Shown piece after piece: positions 5,608 through 14,412 of a stretch of 64,000 bases of DNA. Position 1 is the first letter of the stretch, and every line of letters begins with the position of its first letter. Made by a program: the position numbers and the translations under genes. Under the pieces are notes generated by a model. It saw only the letters and a program-made list of their open reading frames with translations. It had not been told where the DNA came from and made no database searches. This stretch comes from Psychroserpens algicola (GTDB lineage Bacteria; Bacteroidota; Bacteroidia; Flavobacteriales; Flavobacteriaceae): NCBI RefSeq assembly GCF_014526325.1, contig NZ_JACNMJ010000005.1, positions 62,001-126,000 of the forward strand. Reading direction: 5' to 3'.

Positions 5608-6174
5608 GTGTCTATAATAAAAACGTTTTTATTGGATAACGAACAAGATTTTATACACCGCTTAACGACTCCTTCTAGTAAAGAATTGGCTTTTAGAGAA
5701 TTATTATCACTCTATAAAGAGAAATTGTACTGGCATATTCGTCATATTGTGAAATCGCATGACGATGCTGATGATGTATTGCAAAATACTTTTATTAAGG
5801 TCTATAAAAATATTCATAACTTTAAAGGAGATAGTAAATTGTATTCTTGGATGTATCGCATTGCAACCAATGAATCGATAACACATATTAACAAAAATGC
5901 AAAGCGCTTAAATATTTCTGATGAGCAAACGCATCAACTCATGATAAATAACTTAAAAGCCGATGTTTATTTTGAAGGTGATGACATTCAGTATAAATTA
6001 CAACAGGCAATTTCCGTGTTACCTGAAAAGCAACAATTGGTATTTAATATGAGGTACTTTCAAGATATAAAATATAAAGATATGGCAGACATATTAGACA
6101 CAAGTGAAGGTGCTCTAAAAGCATCTTATCATATTGCCGTAAAAAAGATAGAAGCATTTTTAACTCAAGATTAA
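5608..6174 (+). CDS. ECF-type RNA polymerase sigma factor
   Basis: A 188-aa sigma-70 family protein of the extracytoplasmic function class, with only regions 2 and 4. Region 2 runs from about residue 25 to 92 and includes DDVLQNTFIKVYKNI and the -10 reading segment FKGDSKLYSWMYRIATNE. Region 4 (about 128-183) contains LPEKQQLVFNMRYFQ and the helix-turn-helix IKYKDMADILDTSEGALKASYHIAVKKI. The start is GTG; no in-frame ATG exists before region 2. It heads a three-gene unit with a one-TM protein and a Spy-like exported protein, the same order as at the second sigma locus near 13-14 kb. Confidence 0.93.
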   Translation: MSIIKTFLLDNEQDFIHRLTTPSSKELAFRELLSLYKEKLYWHIRHIVKSHDDADDVLQNTFIKVYKNIHNFKGDSKLYSWMYRIATNESITHINKNAKRLNISDEQTHQLMINNLKADVYFEGDDIQYKLQQAISVLPEKQQLVFNMRYFQDIKYKDMADILDTSEGALKASYHIAVKKIEAFLTQD

Positions 6175-6204
6175 ACCAATTACAGACTTTAGAGTCTTAA
6201 TGAT

Positions 6205-6711
6205 ATGAAACAGAAAAAATTAGATAGTCATATAACTTCAGGATTTAAAACCCCTAAGGATTACTTTTCTCAAGTAGAAGAGCAAATTCTAAATGAAGTA
6301 CATCTAAAAAAGAAGGTTGAAACATCTGGGTTTGATTTACCTGAGTCTTATTTTGAATCTCTTGAAGATCGTATTTTGGATCGCATAGAAACTAAAGATG
6401 ATGCCAAAGTCATTTCGATTTTTAATTGGAAAAAAGTGATTTATACATCTGCTGTTGCAGCATCCATAATATTAATATTTAATCTGTTTTATTCTTCGGA
6501 AACTATAACCTGGGAATCTATAGAAACAGCTTCTATCGAAAACTATATAGAACAAGAAGATTATACTGGCTATGAACTGGCCTCCCTTTTAACTGAAGAT
6601 GAACTCAACAAAGCAAATTTTATTGACAACCAAATACCTGAAAGTTCTCTTGAAAATTACTTAATAGAAACCATAGAAATTGAAGATTTAATTTTAGAAC
6701 AAGCTCAATAA
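6205..6711 (+). CDS. One-TM protein next to ECF sigma, possible anti-sigma factor
   Basis: A 168-aa protein without a family I can name. The N-terminal cytoplasmic part holds an internal repeat: GFKTPKDYFSQVEEQIL near residues 14-30 and GFDLPESYFESLEDRIL near 42-58. A single transmembrane helix follows (about 75-93), then an acidic extracytoplasmic tail. Position 30 bp after the sigma gene and the single helix suggest it restrains that sigma factor, but no zinc-binding anti-sigma motif (HxxxCxxC) is present, so this is inference from context. It is followed by the Spy-like gene in the same unit. Confidence 0.75.
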   Translation: MKQKKLDSHITSGFKTPKDYFSQVEEQILNEVHLKKKVETSGFDLPESYFESLEDRILDRIETKDDAKVISIFNWKKVIYTSAVAASIILIFNLFYSSETITWESIETASIENYIEQEDYTGYELASLLTEDELNKANFIDNQIPESSLENYLIETIEIEDLILEQAQ

Positions 6712-6759
6712 ATTATAATGGTCATCTTAGATATCGTAAAGATCAAAACATATACACCT

Positions 6760-7206
6760 ATGAAAAAAACATTTATATCACTATTTTTTATCGCTCTAAC
6801 TCTTAGTGCTTTCGGACAAAAGAAAGAGCGCCAAGAGCGTATTAAAGCTTTGAAAATAGCTTTCATTACCGAAAAGTTAGAACTAACTAAAGCTGAAGCT
6901 CAAAAATTCTGGCCAATCTACAACGCGTATGAGGACGAAACGGATATGCTTCGTCATAATGCTCGTGAAAAACGACGTGGCTTAAAAATGGAATCGCTTA
7001 GCGAAACTGAAGCAAAACAAGCATTGCAAGATTTTTTAGCTTTCGAAAAAGAGCAATTAAATTTAAAAACAGATTTAGTAGAAAGCTTATTAACAGCAAT
7101 TCCTGCAAAAAAAATCATTCTTCTTAAGATTGTAGAAGAACAATTTAAAAAGCAAATGCTGGAAGAGTTCCAAAAGCGACGTGAGAAATTTAAAAATAAA
7201 GGATAA
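6760..7206 (+). CDS. Exported Spy/CpxP-like protein, putative sensor for the ECF module
   Basis: A 148-aa protein with signal peptide MKKTFISLFFIALTLSAFG and a mature part that is almost entirely charged helix, including LTKAEAQKFWPIYNAYEDE and LLTAIPAKKIILLKIVEEQFKKQMLEEF. Flavobacterial relatives are commonly named sensor of ECF-type sigma factor and resemble the LTxxQ proteins Spy and CpxP. I use the ATG at 6760: a longer frame from 6718 would put 14 unlikely residues before a clean signal peptide. It is the third gene of the first ECF module and ends 4 bp from the convergent YCF48-like gene. Confidence 0.82.
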   Translation: MKKTFISLFFIALTLSAFGQKKERQERIKALKIAFITEKLELTKAEAQKFWPIYNAYEDETDMLRHNAREKRRGLKMESLSETEAKQALQDFLAFEKEQLNLKTDLVESLLTAIPAKKIILLKIVEEQFKKQMLEEFQKRREKFKNKG

Positions 7207-7210
7207 GAGT

Positions 7211-8332
7211 TTACTCTTTAAACGTTAATTTCGATAATCTACCGTTTCCTGCAGCATAAGCGACACTGTCATTTAAAAAGCGAATGGTATAAAAACCTTC
7301 ATCACTTAAATGCGTCCAGGAGTTACCTGCATCACTAGAATAATCGATACCGTTAAAACCAATAGCTACCAAGGCTTTACCTTCTCCATTTGGAACATAT
7401 TGCACACAACTCCTGTATCCAGGTGATTGATTTATTGCTACAAGTTGCCAAGTTTTTCCACCATCATGAGTTCTTATTTTATTAGCACTACTGTCAGCAG
7501 GTCTTGTATAGTCACCTCCAATGCCAAAGCCGTTTAATCTGTCATAAAAATCAATAGAATACATCCCAGTAGTTTCTAAACCCTGAACTATAGGTGTATC
7601 ATAAACTTCCCAGGTCTTACCTTTATCAGACGAATATAAAATACGACTCACTTTTCCGCCTGTAGCAATCCAAGTATGAGTTCCAACAATGGCAATATTA
7701 CTATCGCTTGCCGCAAAAGCAGCTTCACCTTCTTTAATTTTAGGCAGATCTTCACACAATAATTTTGTCCAGGTTTCTCCTCCATCTCGAGTAATAATGA
7801 TACTCATGCAATCCGCTGTAGGATCACCAATAGCAATGCCTTCATCATCATTCCAGAATTCCATAGCATCATAAAATGCTTTTGGGTGGTGTTCCTCATA
7901 CACTATTTTGTTTTTCTCTAAATCGGCATTAAGCTGATATAGTAATGCTGGAGAACCTATCGTGATACCAAAACCCTTTTCTTTTAAAGCACTTAAGGCT
8001 CTAAAGTTTAATTGTAGTGTATCATTAGACAAATTAATTTTGTGATGATAAAACGATTTCTCCTTTAGGCTGTCTACATGATTAATAAACGAATTCGGCA
8101 AAAGAATTCCAAACTCGCCTCGCGAGGTTAAGTACGTTGGTCCTATGGAGTCTACAAGCTCCAGAGCTCTTATATTAAGTGTCGAATCCTGAACTAGAGT
8201 TTCGATGTGTACACTTCTAAATTGTTTTAGTGATGGTAGCTGTTTTCTATAAGATGTATAACTCAATAATCCGTAGCACATGATACTCATAGTTACAATT
8301 GAGACAAACACCAATAACTTTTCTTTTTTCAT
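7211..8332 (-). CDS. YCF48-like exported protein with Asp-box (BNR) repeats
   Basis: A 373-aa predicted beta-propeller with an N-terminal membrane anchor or uncleaved signal (KKEKLLVFVSIVTMSIMCYGLL). Four Asp-box motifs are visible: TRDGGETWTKL, SSDKGKTWEVY, THDGGKTWQLV and SSDAGNSWTHL. Relatives are annotated as YCF48-related or oxidoreductase; no enzymatic motif is seen. The start is placed at the ATG at 8332; a longer frame to 8368 would run into the terminator hairpin of the upstream Sco operon. It lies head to tail behind that operon and converges with the first ECF module. Confidence 0.85.
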   Translation of the reverse strand: MKKEKLLVFVSIVTMSIMCYGLLSYTSYRKQLPSLKQFRSVHIETLVQDSTLNIRALELVDSIGPTYLTSRGEFGILLPNSFINHVDSLKEKSFYHHKINLSNDTLQLNFRALSALKEKGFGITIGSPALLYQLNADLEKNKIVYEEHHPKAFYDAMEFWNDDEGIAIGDPTADCMSIIITRDGGETWTKLLCEDLPKIKEGEAAFAASDSNIAIVGTHTWIATGGKVSRILYSSDKGKTWEVYDTPIVQGLETTGMYSIDFYDRLNGFGIGGDYTRPADSSANKIRTHDGGKTWQLVAINQSPGYRSCVQYVPNGEGKALVAIGFNGIDYSSDAGNSWTHLSDEGFYTIRFLNDSVAYAAGNGRLSKLTFKE

Positions 8333-8361
8333 AAACATGAGATTTTTATAAAAATAGAAAA

Positions 8362-8384
8362 GCTCCATGACATAATCACGAAGC
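8362..8384 (-). terminator. Terminator of the YHYH-YwqK-Sco transcript
   Basis: On the minus strand GCTTCGTGA pairs with TCATGGAGC (9 bp with G-U pairs) around TTATG, followed by a T-rich tract. It lies 45 bp after the Sco stop codon and resembles the terminator at 12413-12438. Confidence 0.65.
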
Positions 8385-8429
8385 CTTTCAAACTATTAAT
8401 CAGCAATACACTAATTAACATCAAACTAA

Positions 8430-9137
8430 TCACAATGTTTTATAATTTTCCTTTTTCAAAGCTTTAACATCGGTTATCAACTGCAACATTGAAGCGCGGT
8501 TTAAACCATTGTAAATCCCTCTAATATGTTTATGTTTATCGATGAGTAAAAAGTTTTCAGTATGTAAAAAATCATCTATATTTTTAGGTTCACCTAAATC
8601 ATTTTCAACAAAATACTGTGTTCTACCTAAATTATAAATCTCTAATTTATCACCTGTTACCAGATGCCATTTGTCATCTATAACGCCATGTTTATCAGCA
8701 TAATTTTTAAGAACTGAAACAGAATCTCTTGTTGGCGTAACTGTATGTGATAACAACAAAACGTCATCATCTTCTTTAAATTCTTCTTGAAGTTTAAACA
8801 TGTTTCCAGTCATTTGAGGACAAATTCCCGGACAGCTAGCAAAAAAGAAATCAGTAATATAAATCTTATTTTCAAACGTTTTTTGCGTAACCGTATCACC
8901 CAACTGATTGATGAATCTGAAATCAGGAATTTTATGAAATTGTTGTTCTTCATCTGTTCCTGGTGTTATCCATCTAGGCGTAAATGATTCTTCATTATAA
9001 TATGGCAAATACGCTACTCTGCTCGTTTCTTCAGTTTTAAAATGCTCTTTTTTATTTTGCTCTTTACAGCTCAAACAAACCAGAGTACAACCGATTAAAA
9101 CAAATGCAATTTTAATTCTCTTTAATAACTGTTTCAT
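8430..9137 (-). CDS. SCO1/SenC family copper lipoprotein
   Basis: A 235-aa thioredoxin-fold protein of the Sco family, which delivers copper to or reduces the CuA site of cytochrome oxidase, or serves in copper handling and redox sensing. A lipobox ending in LSC near residue 24 predicts a lipoprotein in the envelope. The copper site CPGIC with SCPGICPQM is present near residues 100-108, and the conserved histidine is in LHTENFLLID near 190. It overlaps the preceding YwqK gene by 26 bp and is the last gene of a unit that begins with a YHYH protein and an ECF-type promoter. The window's cbb3 oxidase has no CuA site, so this Sco may serve another oxidase or a sensing role. Confidence 0.93.
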   Translation of the reverse strand: MKQLLKRIKIAFVLIGCTLVCLSCKEQNKKEHFKTEETSRVAYLPYYNEESFTPRWITPGTDEEQQFHKIPDFRFINQLGDTVTQKTFENKIYITDFFFASCPGICPQMTGNMFKLQEEFKEDDDVLLLSHTVTPTRDSVSVLKNYADKHGVIDDKWHLVTGDKLEIYNLGRTQYFVENDLGEPKNIDDFLHTENFLLIDKHKHIRGIYNGLNRASMLQLITDVKALKKENYKTL

Positions 9138-9729
9138 TGTCTAACTTATAACAAGAATTAGCACGCATCATTCCGAAGATCCTTCCATTTTTAGCCTCAT
9201 AATTGACATACAGTTTACCATTAGGCAGCCAGGCTTTTTGAATACCATCTTCGACTCCATCTTTAAACCAAAGTAATTTAGAAAGCTCTCCATTTGAGTA
9301 CCATTGCTGCTCTTCGCCCTGCTTTTTACCATTTTCATAACTCACTTGCAATGCCAAATTTCCATTGTCCCAAAAACTTTTATACTGACCGGTTAATCTG
9401 TTTTGATGATAATAAGATACCATACGCAACACTCCATTTTCTGACCATCTTTGGGCAATACCTTGCCTTTTTCCCTTATAAAAGCCTAATTTTTCCATTA
9501 AAGTATCATTCTCGTGATATTTTAATGAATAGCCGTTATAAGGTTGATTGTGATAGTACCAAATGCCTTCTAATTGATTTAAGATTAAGTCTGACTTAAG
9601 AACTTCTTTAGTATCAATAGCAATTTTATCCCCTTCTTTTATGACAGCTGCGATATCTGATGGTTTCTGTATTGATGCGTTTTGACAACTCAATACACAA
9701 ATTAAAATTGCTACTACTACTTGCTTCAT
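9112..9729 (-). CDS. YwqK-family MORN-repeat lipoprotein
   Basis: A 205-aa exported protein with a lipobox (VLSC) near residue 15. The body consists of repeats of the W/YxNGxL type, such as WSENGVLRMVSYYHQNRLTG, WDNGNLALQVSYENGKKQG, WYSNGELSKLLWFKDGVEDG and WLPNGKLYVNYEAKNG. Databases often call these toxin-antitoxin system YwqK family antitoxin, but no toxin gene is adjacent and the name should not be taken as a function here. It begins 2 bp after the YHYH gene and overlaps the Sco gene, so all three are one transcript. Confidence 0.85.
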   Translation of the reverse strand: MKQVVVAILICVLSCQNASIQKPSDIAAVIKEGDKIAIDTKEVLKSDLILNQLEGIWYYHNQPYNGYSLKYHENDTLMEKLGFYKGKRQGIAQRWSENGVLRMVSYYHQNRLTGQYKSFWDNGNLALQVSYENGKKQGEEQQWYSNGELSKLLWFKDGVEDGIQKAWLPNGKLYVNYEAKNGRIFGMMRANSCYKLDNETVIKEN

Positions 9730-9731
9730 GA

Positions 9732-10481
9732 TTAATACCCTTGGTAAGGTCCTGCAAATGCAATATAAGACCCTGTGGTAGAATAGACTTCATTAATAAT
9801 ATGGTAATGATATTCTTCTTCTCCATCGGTATATTGTGTCGTTGATGTATGTCCGCCAGAAACATCCAAATCTGTAGGATATGTTCCTGTAGAGCTACAT
9901 TGTCTTCCATAGAGAAAAACACCATCTAATAATACACCAACTAAAGCGTCATCATCATCTGAAAATGCTTTAGGCTCTAGGTGATAATGATACACACCTG
10001 GACCAATATGAGCTCCTGTCCAGTCTAAACTGGCTGCAGCCTGATCTAATGGTCCACCTCCTTCTTGATCATTAAAAATAGAAGCGCCACTAACAGCAAT
10101 TCCTATAGTATTAAAATTTGTAGCAACAGTACTACCTGACAAATCAGGAGTAGCGTCAACAGTTAGCGTTACAGCATTATTATTACTAGACATAATTGAA
10201 GGTGTTAACTGTACATCTGGCTCTTCTCTGTAAAGTTCATGACCAACACCCCAATATACCGTCTCGTGATCTGGTAAACCTGTCGTTTCAATGACCACAT
10301 TTGAACCATCAAGATAAATGGTTGTTGCATCGGTATTGAATGCTGCAAAAGCTGCATGAAGTTCTGTTACTTCACCATCATCTCCATCATCGGTTGTGTT
10401 TGCGCTGTCATCGCTAGAACATGAAATTCCTAAAGCTAACAACATAAAAATTAAAGCTAAATTTTGAAATACATTTTTCAT
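9732..10481 (-). CDS. YHYH-domain lipoprotein
   Basis: A 249-aa protein with lipobox LGISC near residue 21, followed by an acidic Ser/Asp linker (about 22-40) and a YHYH domain. Two copies of the name-giving motif are seen: GVYHYHLEP near residue 165 and EEYHYHIINE near 228. The His-rich motif suggests metal binding, but the molecular function of this family is not established. It is the first gene of a unit with the YwqK and Sco genes and lies behind a copy of the CACAAGT/CATCTAAA element. It is a paralogue of the neighbouring gene at 10574-11707. Confidence 0.88.
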   Translation of the reverse strand: MKNVFQNLALIFMLLALGISCSSDDSANTTDDGDDGEVTELHAAFAAFNTDATTIYLDGSNVVIETTGLPDHETVYWGVGHELYREEPDVQLTPSIMSSNNNAVTLTVDATPDLSGSTVATNFNTIGIAVSGASIFNDQEGGGPLDQAAASLDWTGAHIGPGVYHYHLEPKAFSDDDDALVGVLLDGVFLYGRQCSSTGTYPTDLDVSGGHTSTTQYTDGEEEYHYHIINEVYSTTGSYIAFAGPYQGY

Positions 10482-10531
10482 AATTGGGTTTTGTTAGTTT
10501 TTTTAATCTATTGTTTAAAGTTGTTTTGTTA

Positions 10532-10560
10532 TTAGATGTGATTACAAATAAAAACTTGTG
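10532..10560 (-). promoter_or_regulatory. ECF-type promoter element, copy 5 (YHYH-YwqK-Sco unit)
   Basis: Minus strand reads CACAAGT, 15 nt, CATCTAA. Spacing is identical to the four other copies. The -10-like part lies about 50 bp before the ATG at 10481, the longest leader of the five. Confidence 0.75.
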
Positions 10561-10573
10561 CCTTATTGAAAAT

Positions 10574-11707
10574 TTAATTTCTGTTTCCACTACGTCTTCC
10601 ACCTTTTGCCAACTCTTCTTCTGTTAAAAAGTTATCATTATTGGCATCAATTTGAGAGAAATTTTCGGCTAATGGCCCTTTAGCTTCTTGCTTGGATAAT
10701 TTTCCATCTTTATTGTCATCCATTTGTTCTAGCAACTGACTAAAACTTGGACGACCTCTCTGTCCATTAGAACCTCCGCCTCTACCTTGTTTACCATGCA
10801 TTCCCGATTTTCTTTGTGTGTCTTCATTTACTTCGCCCATAAGGCAGCGACTTACATAAGGAAACTCATTGGTGATAAGATACATGTATGAGCCATTAAT
10901 TGTAATTCCGTTGCATTCATCTAAATCACCATAACCTTCAACATATTCGAAATCTGAAGTAAAAGTTCCATCGTGATGTCCTCCAACTGAAATATCTAAA
11001 GAGGTATGAGGATTTTCATACGAACAATCTTCACCCTCGCGATTACCGTCAAGGGCTTTATAACTTGGCTTATAGGCGCCACTTTTTGAGTAATACATAG
11101 GAAAACCATCATGCGCAAAACCCACATGAACTAAATCTTCAGTAGAGTCAACAGATTCAATAATTGAAGTTGGTGAGCCATGATAGTGGTATTCGCCAGT
11201 AGGTTGCACATGTGCATGATTAAAATCTAAACCTAAATCGATAATATCTTGCAATGCCTCTACACGATAATTCTCTCCTGTATCACAAACAACAACTTCG
11301 GCTGTTCCTGGTTCAAATTTCACACCATTTAAAGCAATACCAGGCTCTCGTATCCACTGAGGTTCTCCTTTATATTTTGGATTTACAGGAAATGTATAGG
11401 TCTTATTTTGTTCAGAAATCGTATTAGGATTTCCTGGATTAGGAAATGTTCCTGTATTATGATTTGGCAACGAATTGGTTACCATAGTTCGTGTATCACC
11501 AGAAACGGTAACCACAGTTTTTGTACCAAAACCTGGATTATTGAGTTCATAACTTCCAAAATAATCTTGGTGTTCCTTAGTCAAAACTTCATCCTCATGC
11601 GAATGACTTCCTAATCCATCATGGCTATGAGATTTAGATTTTTTACTACTATTACAACTCAATACCATACTGGCAATTAAAGTTGTTATTAAAAATTTAT
11701 GTTTCAT
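10574..11707 (-). CDS. YHYH lipoprotein with C-terminal EF-hand pair and His-rich N-terminus
   Basis: A 377-aa protein. After a lipobox (MVLSC near residue 18) comes a His-rich segment, SKSHSHDGLGSHSHEDE. The YHYH domain follows, with GEYHYHGSP near residue 165 and GFAHDGFPMYY after it; the second YHYH motif of its paralogue is not conserved. A Gly-rich linker leads to two EF-hands, DDNKDGKLSKQE and DANNDNFLTEEE, near the C-terminus. These suggest Ca2+ binding plus a transition-metal site; this is inference. ATG at 11707 is used; the TTG two codons upstream is less likely. It starts 16 bp after the EF-hand gene at 11724, so the two share a transcript. Confidence 0.88.
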   Translation of the reverse strand: MKHKFLITTLIASMVLSCNSSKKSKSHSHDGLGSHSHEDEVLTKEHQDYFGSYELNNPGFGTKTVVTVSGDTRTMVTNSLPNHNTGTFPNPGNPNTISEQNKTYTFPVNPKYKGEPQWIREPGIALNGVKFEPGTAEVVVCDTGENYRVEALQDIIDLGLDFNHAHVQPTGEYHYHGSPTSIIESVDSTEDLVHVGFAHDGFPMYYSKSGAYKPSYKALDGNREGEDCSYENPHTSLDISVGGHHDGTFTSDFEYVEGYGDLDECNGITINGSYMYLITNEFPYVSRCLMGEVNEDTQRKSGMHGKQGRGGGSNGQRGRPSFSQLLEQMDDNKDGKLSKQEAKGPLAENFSQIDANNDNFLTEEELAKGGRRSGNRN

Positions 11708-11723
11708 TTTCAATTCTAAAATA

Positions 11724-12239
11724 TTAATCCCTTTTTCTTCGTTTTGGTTTCTCTTTTGTAGCGTAAAACACTTTCAATTCATCTAAATCAAGTTCGTTAT
11801 CTTGATTGGTGTCAATGTCTTTAAAATTTTCTATCAAATCACGTTTATTTTTAGCGGCGACTTCCAACTCATTTAAAGTTCCATCATTATTATCATCAAC
11901 AGTTTTGATGATGTTTTCTGCTGAAATCTGCTTAGGCTTTTTATTGTTTAAAGACGCTTTTAACTCATCTAAATCAATGACATCATCTCCGTTTGCATCA
12001 ATATCATCGAAATCTTCTGATATTTTACCGCGTTTATCCTTAGATGCTTCATCTCTATCGATGACCTCATCTTTATTAGTATCTAATAATGATAGGATTT
12101 CAGAAGCGTCGGGTTTTGAATTTCTTTGTTGCCCTCTTCCCTGACCTCGACCTCCTCCAGGAGGACCTTGAGCGTACACGCCAATAGTTAGCAGTGTTAT
12201 AAATAGGCTAAGTTTTAATTGTAATGTGCTGGTTTTCAT
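11724..12239 (-). CDS. Exported protein with four EF-hands
   Basis: A 171-aa protein with signal peptide ending near VYAQ and a Gly/Arg/Gln-rich segment (GPPGGGRGQGRGQQ). Four EF-hand loops follow: DTNKDEVIDRDE, DANGDDVIDLDE, DDNNDGTLNELE and DTNQDNELDLDE. The tail is basic. It probably binds Ca2+ outside the cytoplasm. An in-frame ATG exists at 12257, but the -10-like element of the upstream promoter ends at 12263, so transcription would begin at about 12256; the ATG at 12239 is therefore chosen. First gene of the unit with the YHYH/EF-hand gene. Confidence 0.88.
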   Translation of the reverse strand: MKTSTLQLKLSLFITLLTIGVYAQGPPGGGRGQGRGQQRNSKPDASEILSLLDTNKDEVIDRDEASKDKRGKISEDFDDIDANGDDVIDLDELKASLNNKKPKQISAENIIKTVDDNNDGTLNELEVAAKNKRDLIENFKDIDTNQDNELDLDELKVFYATKEKPKRRKRD

Positions 12240-12262
12240 TTTATATTTTTTTTGCATAATGT

Positions 12263-12292
12263 TTTAGATGCGTTAGTAGTAAAAAACTTGTG
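12263..12292 (-). promoter_or_regulatory. ECF-type promoter element, copy 4 (EF-hand/YHYH unit)
   Basis: Minus strand reads CACAAGTTTTTTAC, then CATCTAAA, with 15 nt between CAAGT and CATCTAAA. It ends 23 bp before the ATG at 12239. Confidence 0.8.
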
Positions 12293-12412
12293 TTCAAACT
12301 GAAAAAATTGATAATATATACTTCAACTATTTTTCAATCCTATATTTTACTTTTATATAGTTCTTAATCTTGGTTTTCATTATACTGAGAGTCATAATTT
12401 TAAAAGAAAAAA

Positions 12413-12438
12413 GCTCCATGAAGTTTATTTCATGAAGC
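12413..12438 (-). terminator. Terminator after the small EF-hand gene
   Basis: On the minus strand GCTTCATGAA pairs with TTCATGGAGC (one G-U pair) around a 6-nt loop, followed by six T. It isolates the small EF-hand gene from the next unit. The rest of the 250-bp gap 12258-12507 is AT-rich and holds promoter copy 4. Confidence 0.75.
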
Positions 12439-12507
12439 CTTTAACTACTAACCAATCAAAATCAATAATTTTTGGACTAACTCAAATTCTTGTTTTTTTT
12501 AAGGTTT

Positions 12508-12792
12508 TTAATTACGTTCTCGTCTTTGAGGTTTAGGTGCTTTTTTAAATTCTTCTTCTGTGATAAATCCATCTTCATCAGTATCCACCTTAGCAAAATC
12601 TTCTTTTAAAGGTCCCTTAAGTTCGCTTTTTGAAAGTTTGCCATCTTCATTTTTATCCATTTCTTTAAGTAACTCGCTAAATGTTGGAGGTTCTTTTCGT
12701 TCTTTTCTATCTTGCGGTTGTCCGAAAGATATATTTGAAATCATCATAATTCCGAATACTACTACTGCTGTTTTAAACCCGTTGCTTTTCAT
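12508..12792 (-). CDS. Small exported protein with one EF-hand pair
   Basis: A 94-aa protein with a signal peptide (to about residue 25, SFGQ) and two EF-hand loops, DKNEDGKLSKSE and DTDEDGFITEEE, then a basic tail. The mature part matches the C-terminal domain of the YHYH/EF-hand protein almost position for position (FSELLKEMDKNEDGKLSKSE against FSQLLEQMDDNKDGKLSKQE). So one exists as a free domain and one as a fused domain in the same regulon. It is a single-gene unit between its own promoter copy and terminator. Function beyond likely Ca2+ binding is unknown. Confidence 0.88.
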   Translation of the reverse strand: MKSNGFKTAVVVFGIMMISNISFGQPQDRKERKEPPTFSELLKEMDKNEDGKLSKSELKGPLKEDFAKVDTDEDGFITEEEFKKAPKPQRRERN

Positions 12793-12816
12793 GTTTTAAG
12801 TTTTAAGTTATATACC

Positions 12817-12846
12817 TTTAGATGTACTTATGCTTCTAAACTTGTG
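12817..12846 (-). promoter_or_regulatory. ECF-type promoter element, copy 3 (small EF-hand gene)
   Basis: Minus strand reads CACAAGT, 15 nt, CATCTAAA; ends 24 bp before the ATG at 12792. Confidence 0.8.
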
Positions 12847-12875
12847 CCTGTCTTTGTTAAATAAATCACAAAAAA

Positions 12876-12900
12876 AAGACCTTCAAAATTTGAAAGTCTT
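12876..12900 (-). terminator. Terminator after the Spy-like gene of the second ECF module
   Basis: Minus strand AAGACTTTCAA pairs with TTGAAGGTCTT (11 bp, one G-U pair) around ATT, followed by a run of T. Confidence 0.75.
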
Positions 12901-12920
12901 AAAATACTTTTAGTGCTATT

Positions 12921-13421
12921 TTAATTATTGCGTGGTGGTCTATGTCCTCCAACTTCTCCTGGAGGAGGCGGTCCTTCTCCTCGCTCTCCTTGCCTTAGGG
13001 CATCCATTATAATCATCTTGAATTTTTCCTTTTGTTTGTCATCAGATAACTCCTGAATCATCTTAAAATGAGAAAAGACTTCTTTATCCTTTTCCTTTTC
13101 CTTGTCACAAATTAAAGAGGTTATAGAATCTATAACAGCATCACTTACTGCATCTTCAGACAGTTTACTAAACAGTTCATCCTTAAGATTTTTGACATCG
13201 TCATTTAAACGTACAATAGTTTCATGATGCCCTACACTATTTTCTCTAAATTGGGCAATTTGCTCTTCGTTAAACCCAAGTTCTTTTACAATAAAGTTTT
13301 TATCTTTTTGTTTGCTATGTCCTTTTTTACTCTTGCCTTTTCCAATATAATTAAATAGAAAAAAACCATTAACTATAATTAAAAAGAAAAGTAAAACGTA
13401 CAGAATTGTATTTTTTTTCAT
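12921..13421 (-). CDS. Spy/CpxP-like membrane-anchored protein, putative metal or stress sensor
   Basis: A 166-aa protein with an N-terminal transmembrane anchor (about residues 6-25) and a mainly helical, charged extracytoplasmic part. KELGFNEEQIAQFRENSVGHHETIVRLNDDVKNL resembles the LTxxQ-type helices of the Spy/CpxP/CnrX group, which includes heavy-metal sensors next to ECF sigma genes. The C-terminus is Pro/Gly/His-rich (GPPPPGEVGGHRPPRNN). ATG at 13421 is preferred over the TTG two codons earlier. It starts 2 bp after the one-TM gene, so the two are coupled. A sensing role is inferred from this context. Confidence 0.8.
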   Translation of the reverse strand: MKKNTILYVLLFFLIIVNGFFLFNYIGKGKSKKGHSKQKDKNFIVKELGFNEEQIAQFRENSVGHHETIVRLNDDVKNLKDELFSKLSEDAVSDAVIDSITSLICDKEKEKDKEVFSHFKMIQELSDDKQKEKFKMIIMDALRQGERGEGPPPPGEVGGHRPPRNN

Positions 13422-13423
13422 AA

Positions 13424-13720
13424 TCAATATAATATTGAGGATTCGCTACTTGTTGACAACCCATAAGATTCTGCAAAAGTATTTACAGTCTCATCATAAG
13501 TAGTTTCTTGTAAGTTATTAAAAGCCATTATATTTAAAACAACAACACAAACCAAAGTCGCCAGTTGCAACTTAGGCGTAAACCATGACCAGGTTTTATC
13601 TTGTATATCTTCAGAGGCATTACGAATGCGATGCATGACCTTTTCCTTTAAAAAAGGAGACACTTCAGCTTCTTCAATAAAGTCAACCGAATTCAATGTA
13701 TTTTTAACTCTTTTATTCAT
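13424..13720 (-). CDS. Small one-TM protein of the second ECF module, possible anti-sigma factor
   Basis: A 98-aa protein (104 aa if the ATG at 13738 is used). It has a charged N-terminal part with SPFLKEKVMHRI, a single transmembrane helix near residues 53-70 and a short extracytoplasmic tail. No known anti-sigma motif is present; the role is inferred from position directly after the sigma gene and from the parallel layout at 5.6-7.2 kb. The promoter's -10-like element ends at 13748, so a start at 13738 would leave almost no leader; ATG 13720 gives a leader like those of the other units. This choice is a judgement. Confidence 0.68.
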   Translation of the reverse strand: MNKRVKNTLNSVDFIEEAEVSPFLKEKVMHRIRNASEDIQDKTWSWFTPKLQLATLVCVVVLNIMAFNNLQETTYDETVNTFAESYGLSTSSESSILY

Positions 13721-13747
13721 TTCTACATTAAGTTTCATAAGTATGTC

Positions 13748-13777
13748 TTTAGATGTAATAATTAAAAAAAACTTGTG
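13748..13777 (-). promoter_or_regulatory. ECF-type promoter element, copy 2 (one-TM/Spy-like unit)
   Basis: Minus strand reads CACAAGTTTTTTTTAA, then CATCTAAA, with 15 nt between CAAGT and CATCTAAA. Confidence 0.8.
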
Positions 13778-14356
13778 TTACATTTCATTTTTATAAAAAT
13801 TTTCCAGAACACTTTGCAGGTTCTTTTTTGCTCTAAACATGATAGATTCTACTGAAGATAAGCTTCGTTGTGTAATTTCAGAAATTTCCTGATAACTTTT
13901 ACCATCAATTTTATGAAGCGTAAAAACAACCGACTGATTTTCAGGCAGGTTATTTATAGCTTTAAACAACGTTTCATTCAATTCTTTATGTTCTAACAGT
14001 ATTCCAGGGTGATTTATTTCAGTAAAATAATTTGTTTTATCCATCGGAATCGCATTTCCAGTTATAGATTGCAAAAAAGCAAATCGCTTTTTAGTATTTC
14101 GTTTTCTGATAAATTCTAAACATTTATTTGTTGTAATTCTGTAAATCCATGTCGATAATTTTGAATCACCTTTAAATTTTGAAATCGAATTAAAAACTTC
14201 AATAAATACATCTTGCGCTATATCTTCAGCATCCTCTTTATTAGGCACAAAAGAAATACACGTACTAAAAACTTTTTGTTGATAATCGTCCAAAAGCTGA
14301 CTGTAAGCCATTGGGCTTTTCAATTTTAGTTCCTCTATAAATTTAGTTTCAGTCAA
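13778..14356 (-). CDS. ECF-type RNA polymerase sigma factor
   Basis: A 192-aa ECF sigma factor. Region 2 (about residues 15-85) includes EDAEDIAQDVFIEVFNSISKFKGDSKLSTWIYRITTNKCLEFIRKR split over the core and -10 reading helices; region 4 (about 128-185) includes LPENQSVVFTLHKIDG and the helix-turn-helix KSYQEISEITQRSLSSVESIMFRAKKNL. The start appears to be TTG at 14356: the TETKFIEELKLKSPMAYSQLL beginning is typical of the family and the first in-frame ATG would remove it. It is preceded by its own copy of the shared promoter element, so it probably activates itself and the four units downstream. Confidence 0.93.
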   Translation of the reverse strand: MTETKFIEELKLKSPMAYSQLLDDYQQKVFSTCISFVPNKEDAEDIAQDVFIEVFNSISKFKGDSKLSTWIYRITTNKCLEFIRKRNTKKRFAFLQSITGNAIPMDKTNYFTEINHPGILLEHKELNETLFKAINNLPENQSVVFTLHKIDGKSYQEISEITQRSLSSVESIMFRAKKNLQSVLENFYKNEM

Positions 14357-14382
14357 AAAAAAGGTGGTTAAATACTAATAGG

Positions 14383-14412
14383 TTTAGATGCGGTTCTAAA
14401 TAAAAACTTGCG
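14383..14412 (-). promoter_or_regulatory. ECF-type promoter element, copy 1 (sigma gene itself)
   Basis: Minus strand reads CGCAAGT, 15 nt, CATCTAAA. It has one change from the CACAAGT of the other copies. It ends 26 bp before the TTG start, giving a leader of about 20 nt. Confidence 0.78.

Follow-up and report, generated by a model that had tools for sequence, protein, structure and literature searches.

RpoE (sigma-E) promoters have a -10 region resembling TCTAA or TCTGA, a spacing of about 16 and a -35 region of GAACTT, and the regulons of this extracytoplasmic function (ECF) sigma factor are directed at the envelope. In the CnrYXH system of Cupriavidus metallidurans, the ECF sigma factor CnrH is clustered with an anti-sigma factor of one transmembrane stretch (one-TM), CnrY, and with the membrane-anchored CnrX; PMC9045368 describes CnrYX as a membrane-bound complex and places a sigma-dependent promoter, cnrYp, before the anti-sigma and sensor genes. 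Here we analyse a gene block at 8362-14412 of a 64,000-nucleotide stretch of Psychroserpens algicola (GCF_014526325.1, contig NZ_JACNMJ010000005.1, positions 62,001 to 126,000), hereafter the window, in which copies of a two-part element, CAAGT-N15-CATCTAA, precede the genes for an ECF sigma factor (SIG), a one-TM protein (ASIG), a membrane-anchored Spy-like protein (SPY) and several predicted exported proteins. The element is very probably an ECF promoter and the units behind it one regulon of SIG.

The circuit may work like CnrYXH: in both an ECF sigma factor, a one-TM protein and a membrane-anchored protein, here of putative CnrX fold, are clustered, and a promoter, here a predicted one, lies before the anti-sigma and sensor genes, which are likewise putative here. 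Unlike CnrYXH, the order here is sigma-TM-sensor, the SIG profile is closer to RpoE (the solved E. coli sigma-E was its top match, 3.4e-28) than to CnrH (1.9e-8), ASIG matches no solved anti-sigma factor, SPY shows, as far as an estimated register allows, no conservation where CnrX has its ligands E63 and M123, and the predicted targets are exported proteins in place of an efflux pump. With the RpoE regulons the system shares the sigma sequence, the envelope-directed targets, a -10 of the TCTAA kind and a similar spacing; however, the -35 is CAAGTT here rather than GAACTT, and a Pfam scan of ASIG gave no RseA-like protein. Spy, CpxP and ZraP have the fold of SPY, about half of whose relatives match LTXXQ or Metal_resist, whereas SPY differs in its N-terminal TM anchor and its fixed place behind a sigma and a one-TM gene. 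Within the Flavobacteriaceae, the SM6 promoters of Flavobacterium psychrophilum are likewise ECF promoters with a sigma/anti-sigma pair among the targets, but they are characterised by a CGT box and secretion-system targets, and no TCTAA or CATC string occurs in the portion of text available, which lacks the full motif sequence (PMC9723704).

The element in the window and the genome

Five exact copies of CAAGT-N15-CATCTAA were found on the minus strand of the window, the spacer always being exactly 15, as against a mean of 0.03 in shuffled windows; five copies were reached in none of 100 shuffles. The original prediction had described these five elements of identical geometry, with copy 1 reading CGCAAGT and copy 5 lacking the terminal A, and had placed each directly before a transcription unit; all of this was confirmed from the window sequence. 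The features of the block are as follows, the coordinates of the sites being those of the 12-base core (CAAGT plus CATCTAA).

14384..14410, minus strand: site 1, before the sigma gene; exact CAAGT-N15-CATCTAA
13778..14356, minus strand: SIG, ECF sigma factor, RpoE/SigW-like; Pfam Sigma70_r2 and r4_2, sigma-E profile match
13749..13775, minus strand: site 2, at the junction of SIG with the one-TM gene; exact motif
13424..13738, minus strand: ASIG, one-TM protein, putative anti-sigma factor; conserved, small, one hydrophobic stretch
12921..13421, minus strand: SPY, membrane-anchored Spy/CpxP/CnrX-like protein, putative sensor; family profiles, model and structural matches
12876..12900, minus strand: terminator-like hairpin; terminator scan
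12818..12844, minus strand: site 3, before the small EF-hand gene; exact motif
12508..12792, minus strand: EF-hand protein, 94 aa, signal-like N-terminus; Pfam EF-hand_1
12409..12442, minus strand: terminator-like hairpin; terminator scan
12264..12290, minus strand: site 4, before the EF-hand/YHYH pair; exact motif
11724..12257, minus strand: EF-hand protein; Pfam EF-hand_1
10574..11713, minus strand: YHYH protein with C-terminal EF-hands and a lipoprotein-like N-terminus; Pfam YHYH (4.1e-53) and EF-hand_5
10532..10558, minus strand: site 5, before the YHYH-MORN-SCO unit; exact motif
9732..10481, minus strand: YHYH protein; Pfam YHYH (1.4e-6)
9112..9729, minus strand: MORN_2 (YwqK-like) protein, lipoprotein-like; Pfam MORN_2
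8430..9137, minus strand: SCO1/SenC protein, lipoprotein-like; Pfam SCO1-SenC (9.1e-24)
8357..8389, minus strand: terminator-like hairpin, closing the block after the last unit; terminator scan

SIG, of 192 aa, is an ECF sigma factor, with Sigma70_r2 and r4_2 in Pfam and the sigma70-ECF superfamily in NCBIfam all above cut-off. Nine genes were counted in the block (the sigma factor, ASIG, SPY, two EF-hand, two YHYH, MORN and SCO), where the prediction had ten. Both hairpin terminators it named were recovered by the scan, together with the third at 8357-8389; between 5000 and 15000 the scan gave 10 terminator-like sites against a shuffle mean of 4.9 (sd 2.1). A BNR-repeat gene (7211-8368, minus strand), which adjoins SCO, lies behind this third terminator and has no site upstream in the same genome.

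Scans of the genome and of related genomes had been proposed as a check, with random occurrence of the motif as the outcome that would speak against it. Across the whole genome (3,795,616 bases in 17 contigs) there are six exact sites, five of them inside 3.9 kb of the window block, and two matches to the reversed pattern. The sixth site, on another contig, lies 31 nt upstream of the ATG of a YHYH gene (Pfam). Geometry, spacing, strand, placement and rarity in the genome are all consistent with an ECF sigma promoter, and by sequence comparison the predicted targets, the sigma and ASIG genes among them, share a two-part element of the kind expected for an ECF regulon with self-activation.

The element in relatives

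Relatives were fetched by the sigma gene: of 390 confirmed loci in named genomes the best 80 were taken. Most of them belong to Winogradskyella, Algibacter, Lacinutrix, Psychroserpens, Tamlana and Polaribacter; Winogradskyella is represented many times, so the loci are not independent. At spacer 15 there are 276 sense sites and no antisense site, with the element present at 80/80 loci, while each of the spacers 10-14 and 16-21 gave 0 to 3 matches in sense. Both blocks are conserved and the middle barely, with an extended consensus of C[GA]CAAGTTTT...RCATCTAAA. Of 272 sites, 236 have the start of a plus-strand open reading frame (ORF) no more than 150 nt further on, at a median distance of 27 nt.

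The junction between the sigma gene and ASIG carries a site in all 80 relatives (74 exact and six with one mismatch), whereas a site before the sigma gene was found in 44 (38 exact and six with one mismatch); control windows (n=240, two of them empty) held one exact site and none with one mismatch. The predicted ASIG-SPY feedback is therefore the constant part and sigma self-activation the variable one, so that the predicted activation of the sigma gene by its own product fits the site before SIG in this genome and only part of its relatives.

The distribution of the element was then compared with that of the sigma gene in 149 Flavobacteriaceae genomes, nearly all of different genera. The sigma gene was counted as present at 61% identity or more (19 genomes), five genomes with 34-49% being counted as without. 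The strict element (ACAAGTT-N14-CATCTAA) was found in 18/149 genomes, namely in 15/19 with the sigma gene versus 3/130 without (Fisher 2e-14), and sigma-gene genomes held 26 of the 30 strict matches; the reversed control gave four matches there and seven in the others. YHYH genes were likewise present in 17/19 genomes with the sigma gene versus 23/130 others.

ASIG and SPY

ASIG is a protein of 104 aa with one hydrophobic stretch, as judged by eye. It matches no family in Pfam or NCBIfam, and the recognisable domain of a class I anti-sigma factor was not found in it. ASIG is probably an anti-sigma factor and SPY the sensor, both roles being inferred.

SPY belongs to the Spy/CpxP/CnrX superfamily, having both the family matches and the helical hairpin. 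In its model (pLDDT 84) a TM helix at the N-terminus is joined by a domain with a helical hairpin. At E up to 0.1, Metal_resist was matched by 27/48 relatives and LTXXQ by 26/48, the window protein itself matching neither; its profile matched solved Spy at 1.2e-4. The nearest solved structure to the model is CnrX (Z 11.3, rmsd 3.0 over 105 residues), followed by ZraP, designed bundles, STV, Spy and CpxP, while Foldseek gave E values of 0.06 and above, none below 0.001. As designed helical bundles reach Z 10.1 and such values are not decisive for helical bundles, the fold call rests on sequence and structure jointly.

CnrX binds metal through H42, H46 and H119 in addition to E63 and M123, the last two being taken from PDB titles. 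With the register estimated solely from the aligned ranges (41-147 of the model, 43-148 of CnrX), SPY position 62 is mixed and position 122 is I or V in 48/48 relatives; H118 is found in 27/48 and H65 in 45/48. As far as that estimated register can be trusted, a metal site of the CnrX type in SPY is unsupported, the positions near E63 and M123 not being conserved.

The plus strand of the window has a second cluster, convergent with the block, at 5608-7206, which encodes an ECF sigma factor, a one-TM protein and a Spy-like protein. The latter has weak Metal_resist and LTXXQ matches, and the TM protein of the cluster shows no relation to ASIG in a profile comparison (probability 0.5%).

Distant loci across the phylum

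A profile search with ASIG found matches in 39/296 Bacteroidota genomes at 1e-6, the own genome included. The 24 distant loci considered here come from four of the 38 other genomes with a match and from 20 of the remaining 34. The order sigma, ASIG relative, Spy-like gene holds in 24/24, and as these genes occur together in such far relatives the control circuit looks old. In family f17, from another class, 13/13 sigma-ASIG junctions carry an element like CACAAGTTTT-N-CGTC with a spacer of 15; a related element stands before the sigma gene in 2/2 loci of f34 and, with weaker matches, in 2/3 of f4. In total a related promoter was found in 17/24 distant loci versus 74/9600 shuffled regions, a descriptive count, since the pattern was fixed after reading the junctions and the shuffles are the sole control. 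A spacer of 12 also gives 11 distant loci, which is attributed to the repeated TC in TGTCGTC.

Two consecutive Spy-like genes often follow the ASIG relative in the f17 loci L166, L169, L174, L177, L179 and L180.

Alternative explanations

The sites could serve another sigma factor, the obvious candidate being the neighbour encoded at 5608-6174, whose cluster adjoins the block convergently here and is often a neighbour in relatives too. This neighbouring sigma gene is, however, present in 133/149 genomes, compared with 18 for the strict motif, and therefore cannot account for the distribution of the motif; only 3/114 genomes that have it but lack SIG contain the motif, and no site precedes it in the window. 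We consider this explanation very improbable, and no more credit is given to the element being a repressor or activator binding site rather than a promoter. A short conserved sequence at a fixed distance upstream of genes would suit such a site, yet the element is non-palindromic, is built of two blocks with a fixed 15-nt spacer, occurs in sense only and tracks a sigma gene across genomes. Its distant forms moreover end in CGTC, and a CGT box is typical of ECF promoters according to PMC9723704. The least credible proposal, which we all but discount, is that the element is a repeat or a relic of recombination, multiplied together with amplified genes for exported proteins: there are indeed multiple copies close to one another, among paralogous EF-hand and YHYH genes, but the spacer and flanks vary among the copies, the genes behind them are unrelated (sigma, ASIG, CotH, VTC, sulfatase) and other classes of the phylum still have a related form.

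A number of results nevertheless weigh against an ECF promoter read by SIG, or against the circuit built upon it. Four of the 30 strict matches fall in genomes without the sigma gene, and the strict form is missing from 4/19 genomes with it; three of these four show the 12-base form at the locus, and L049 has no more than a copy with one mismatch. In one sigma-gene genome (L147) a site is without a clear downstream gene, and a genome of the same genus (G045) has the sigma gene and sites but no YHYH gene. No site with 0-1 mismatch precedes the sigma gene in 36/80 relatives, and the ATG of ASIG is only some 10 nt from site 2, which leaves a leader of a few nt or a start further in. When two mismatches were allowed in a 14-base form, 58 genomic matches were obtained against 71 in the reversed control; this relaxed search was rejected as an extension of the regulon, and as weaker targets are therefore indistinguishable the claim is limited to exact and near-exact sites. 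Among the distant loci the promoter pattern failed in 5/5 of family f23 and in the single f16 locus. No anti-sigma family was found among 44 ASIG relatives in Pfam at E up to 0.1 (17 families came up, none in more than three of the 44 members), and a PDB profile search with ASIG gave no credible match and no solved anti-sigma factor. The best PDB match, a photosystem chain at E 0.0047, was rejected, with no stretch passing alone.

The proposed regulon

That SIG recognises the element, and the direction of the response, are inferred. RNA polymerase with SIG would initiate at the CAAGT-N15-CATCTAA sites. The one-TM ASIG would hold SIG at the membrane, and the membrane-anchored SPY would sense an envelope signal, upon which SIG would be freed. 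Free SIG would transcribe ASIG and SPY, a feedback brake with a site in all relatives, and in the Psychroserpens algicola genome also its own gene; it would further transcribe the exported EF-hand, YHYH, MORN and SCO units and a distant YHYH-arsR-acr3 locus.

This last locus means that the single regulon of SIG originally predicted, which is supported by the motif following SIG across genomes, would exceed the window. A search for the YHYH family in the own genome gave three genes, all in units that open with a site, and directly downstream of the lipoprotein-like YHYH gene behind the sixth site lie, in the same orientation, genes for an ArsR/SmtB-type regulator and then an ACR3 arsenite transporter (L190, contig C14, 4666-7165, minus strand). 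As to the signal, copper and calcium were both considered: SCO, the CnrX-like fold and the arsR/acr3 genes behind the sixth site are weak pointers to metals, and the EF-hands to calcium. A model of the protein that combines YHYH and EF-hands reached a mean pLDDT of 46 and a pTM of 0.26 and was set aside.

Sorted by first gene, the 276 sites in relatives precede an ASIG-like gene in 74 cases, an EF-hand gene in 70 (52 + 18), a YHYH gene in 56 (40, 10 and 6), a sigma gene in 25 and a BNR gene in 2, with 43 unassigned, in part sigma genes which the first-gene rule reads in the wrong frame, and six without an ORF by that rule. Representatives of other first or block genes are CotH kinase, Cthe_2159, VTC, DUF4956, di-haem peroxidase, sulfatase and DUF2490; CotH was sought in the own genome and none was found. 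With sigma and ASIG excluded, 151/155 first genes have a signal-like N-terminus versus 156/428 upstream-flank genes, by a crude N-terminus rule that misjudged a trimmed sigma sequence.

In some relatives (L088, L105, L110, L114, L116, L127) the VTC, DUF4956, DUF2490 and CotH genes are consecutive within the block, a row that makes up a polyphosphate-polymerase-like and surface-kinase-like set. A BNR-repeat gene is common in relatives (45/80 loci) and stands first behind a site in 2/276 cases, so that certain species may include it in the regulon.

Significance

Taken more broadly, sigma-ASIG-SPY could be an old, phylum-wide envelope-sensing circuit of CnrYXH-like build with an undescribed anti-sigma family, a reading for which we see about as much reason to accept as to doubt. 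Across classes the feedback promoter would then have preserved its -35 and the 15-nt spacing, its -10 shifting from CGTC to CATC, and in marine Flavobacteriaceae the circuit would have taken over a surface programme made up of YHYH, EF-hand, CotH, VTC and SCO proteins. A literature search found nothing on this promoter, on the regulation of YHYH or on this anti-sigma factor; the 2021 ECF re-classification, which lay outside that search, may list the group.

The uncharacterised YHYH family gains a candidate regulator from this work, and an ECF sigma factor of marine Flavobacteriaceae gains a predicted promoter that can be searched for at single-base precision. The anti-sigma/sensor pair is proposed for a phylum whose ECF genes rarely have a class I anti-sigma factor beside them; as such factors lie near only 6% of Bacteroidetes ECFs (PMC7406223), an anti-sigma factor of another class would be useful news. 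If true, a phylum-wide circuit would answer how a share of the RpoE-like ECFs of Bacteroidota are held.

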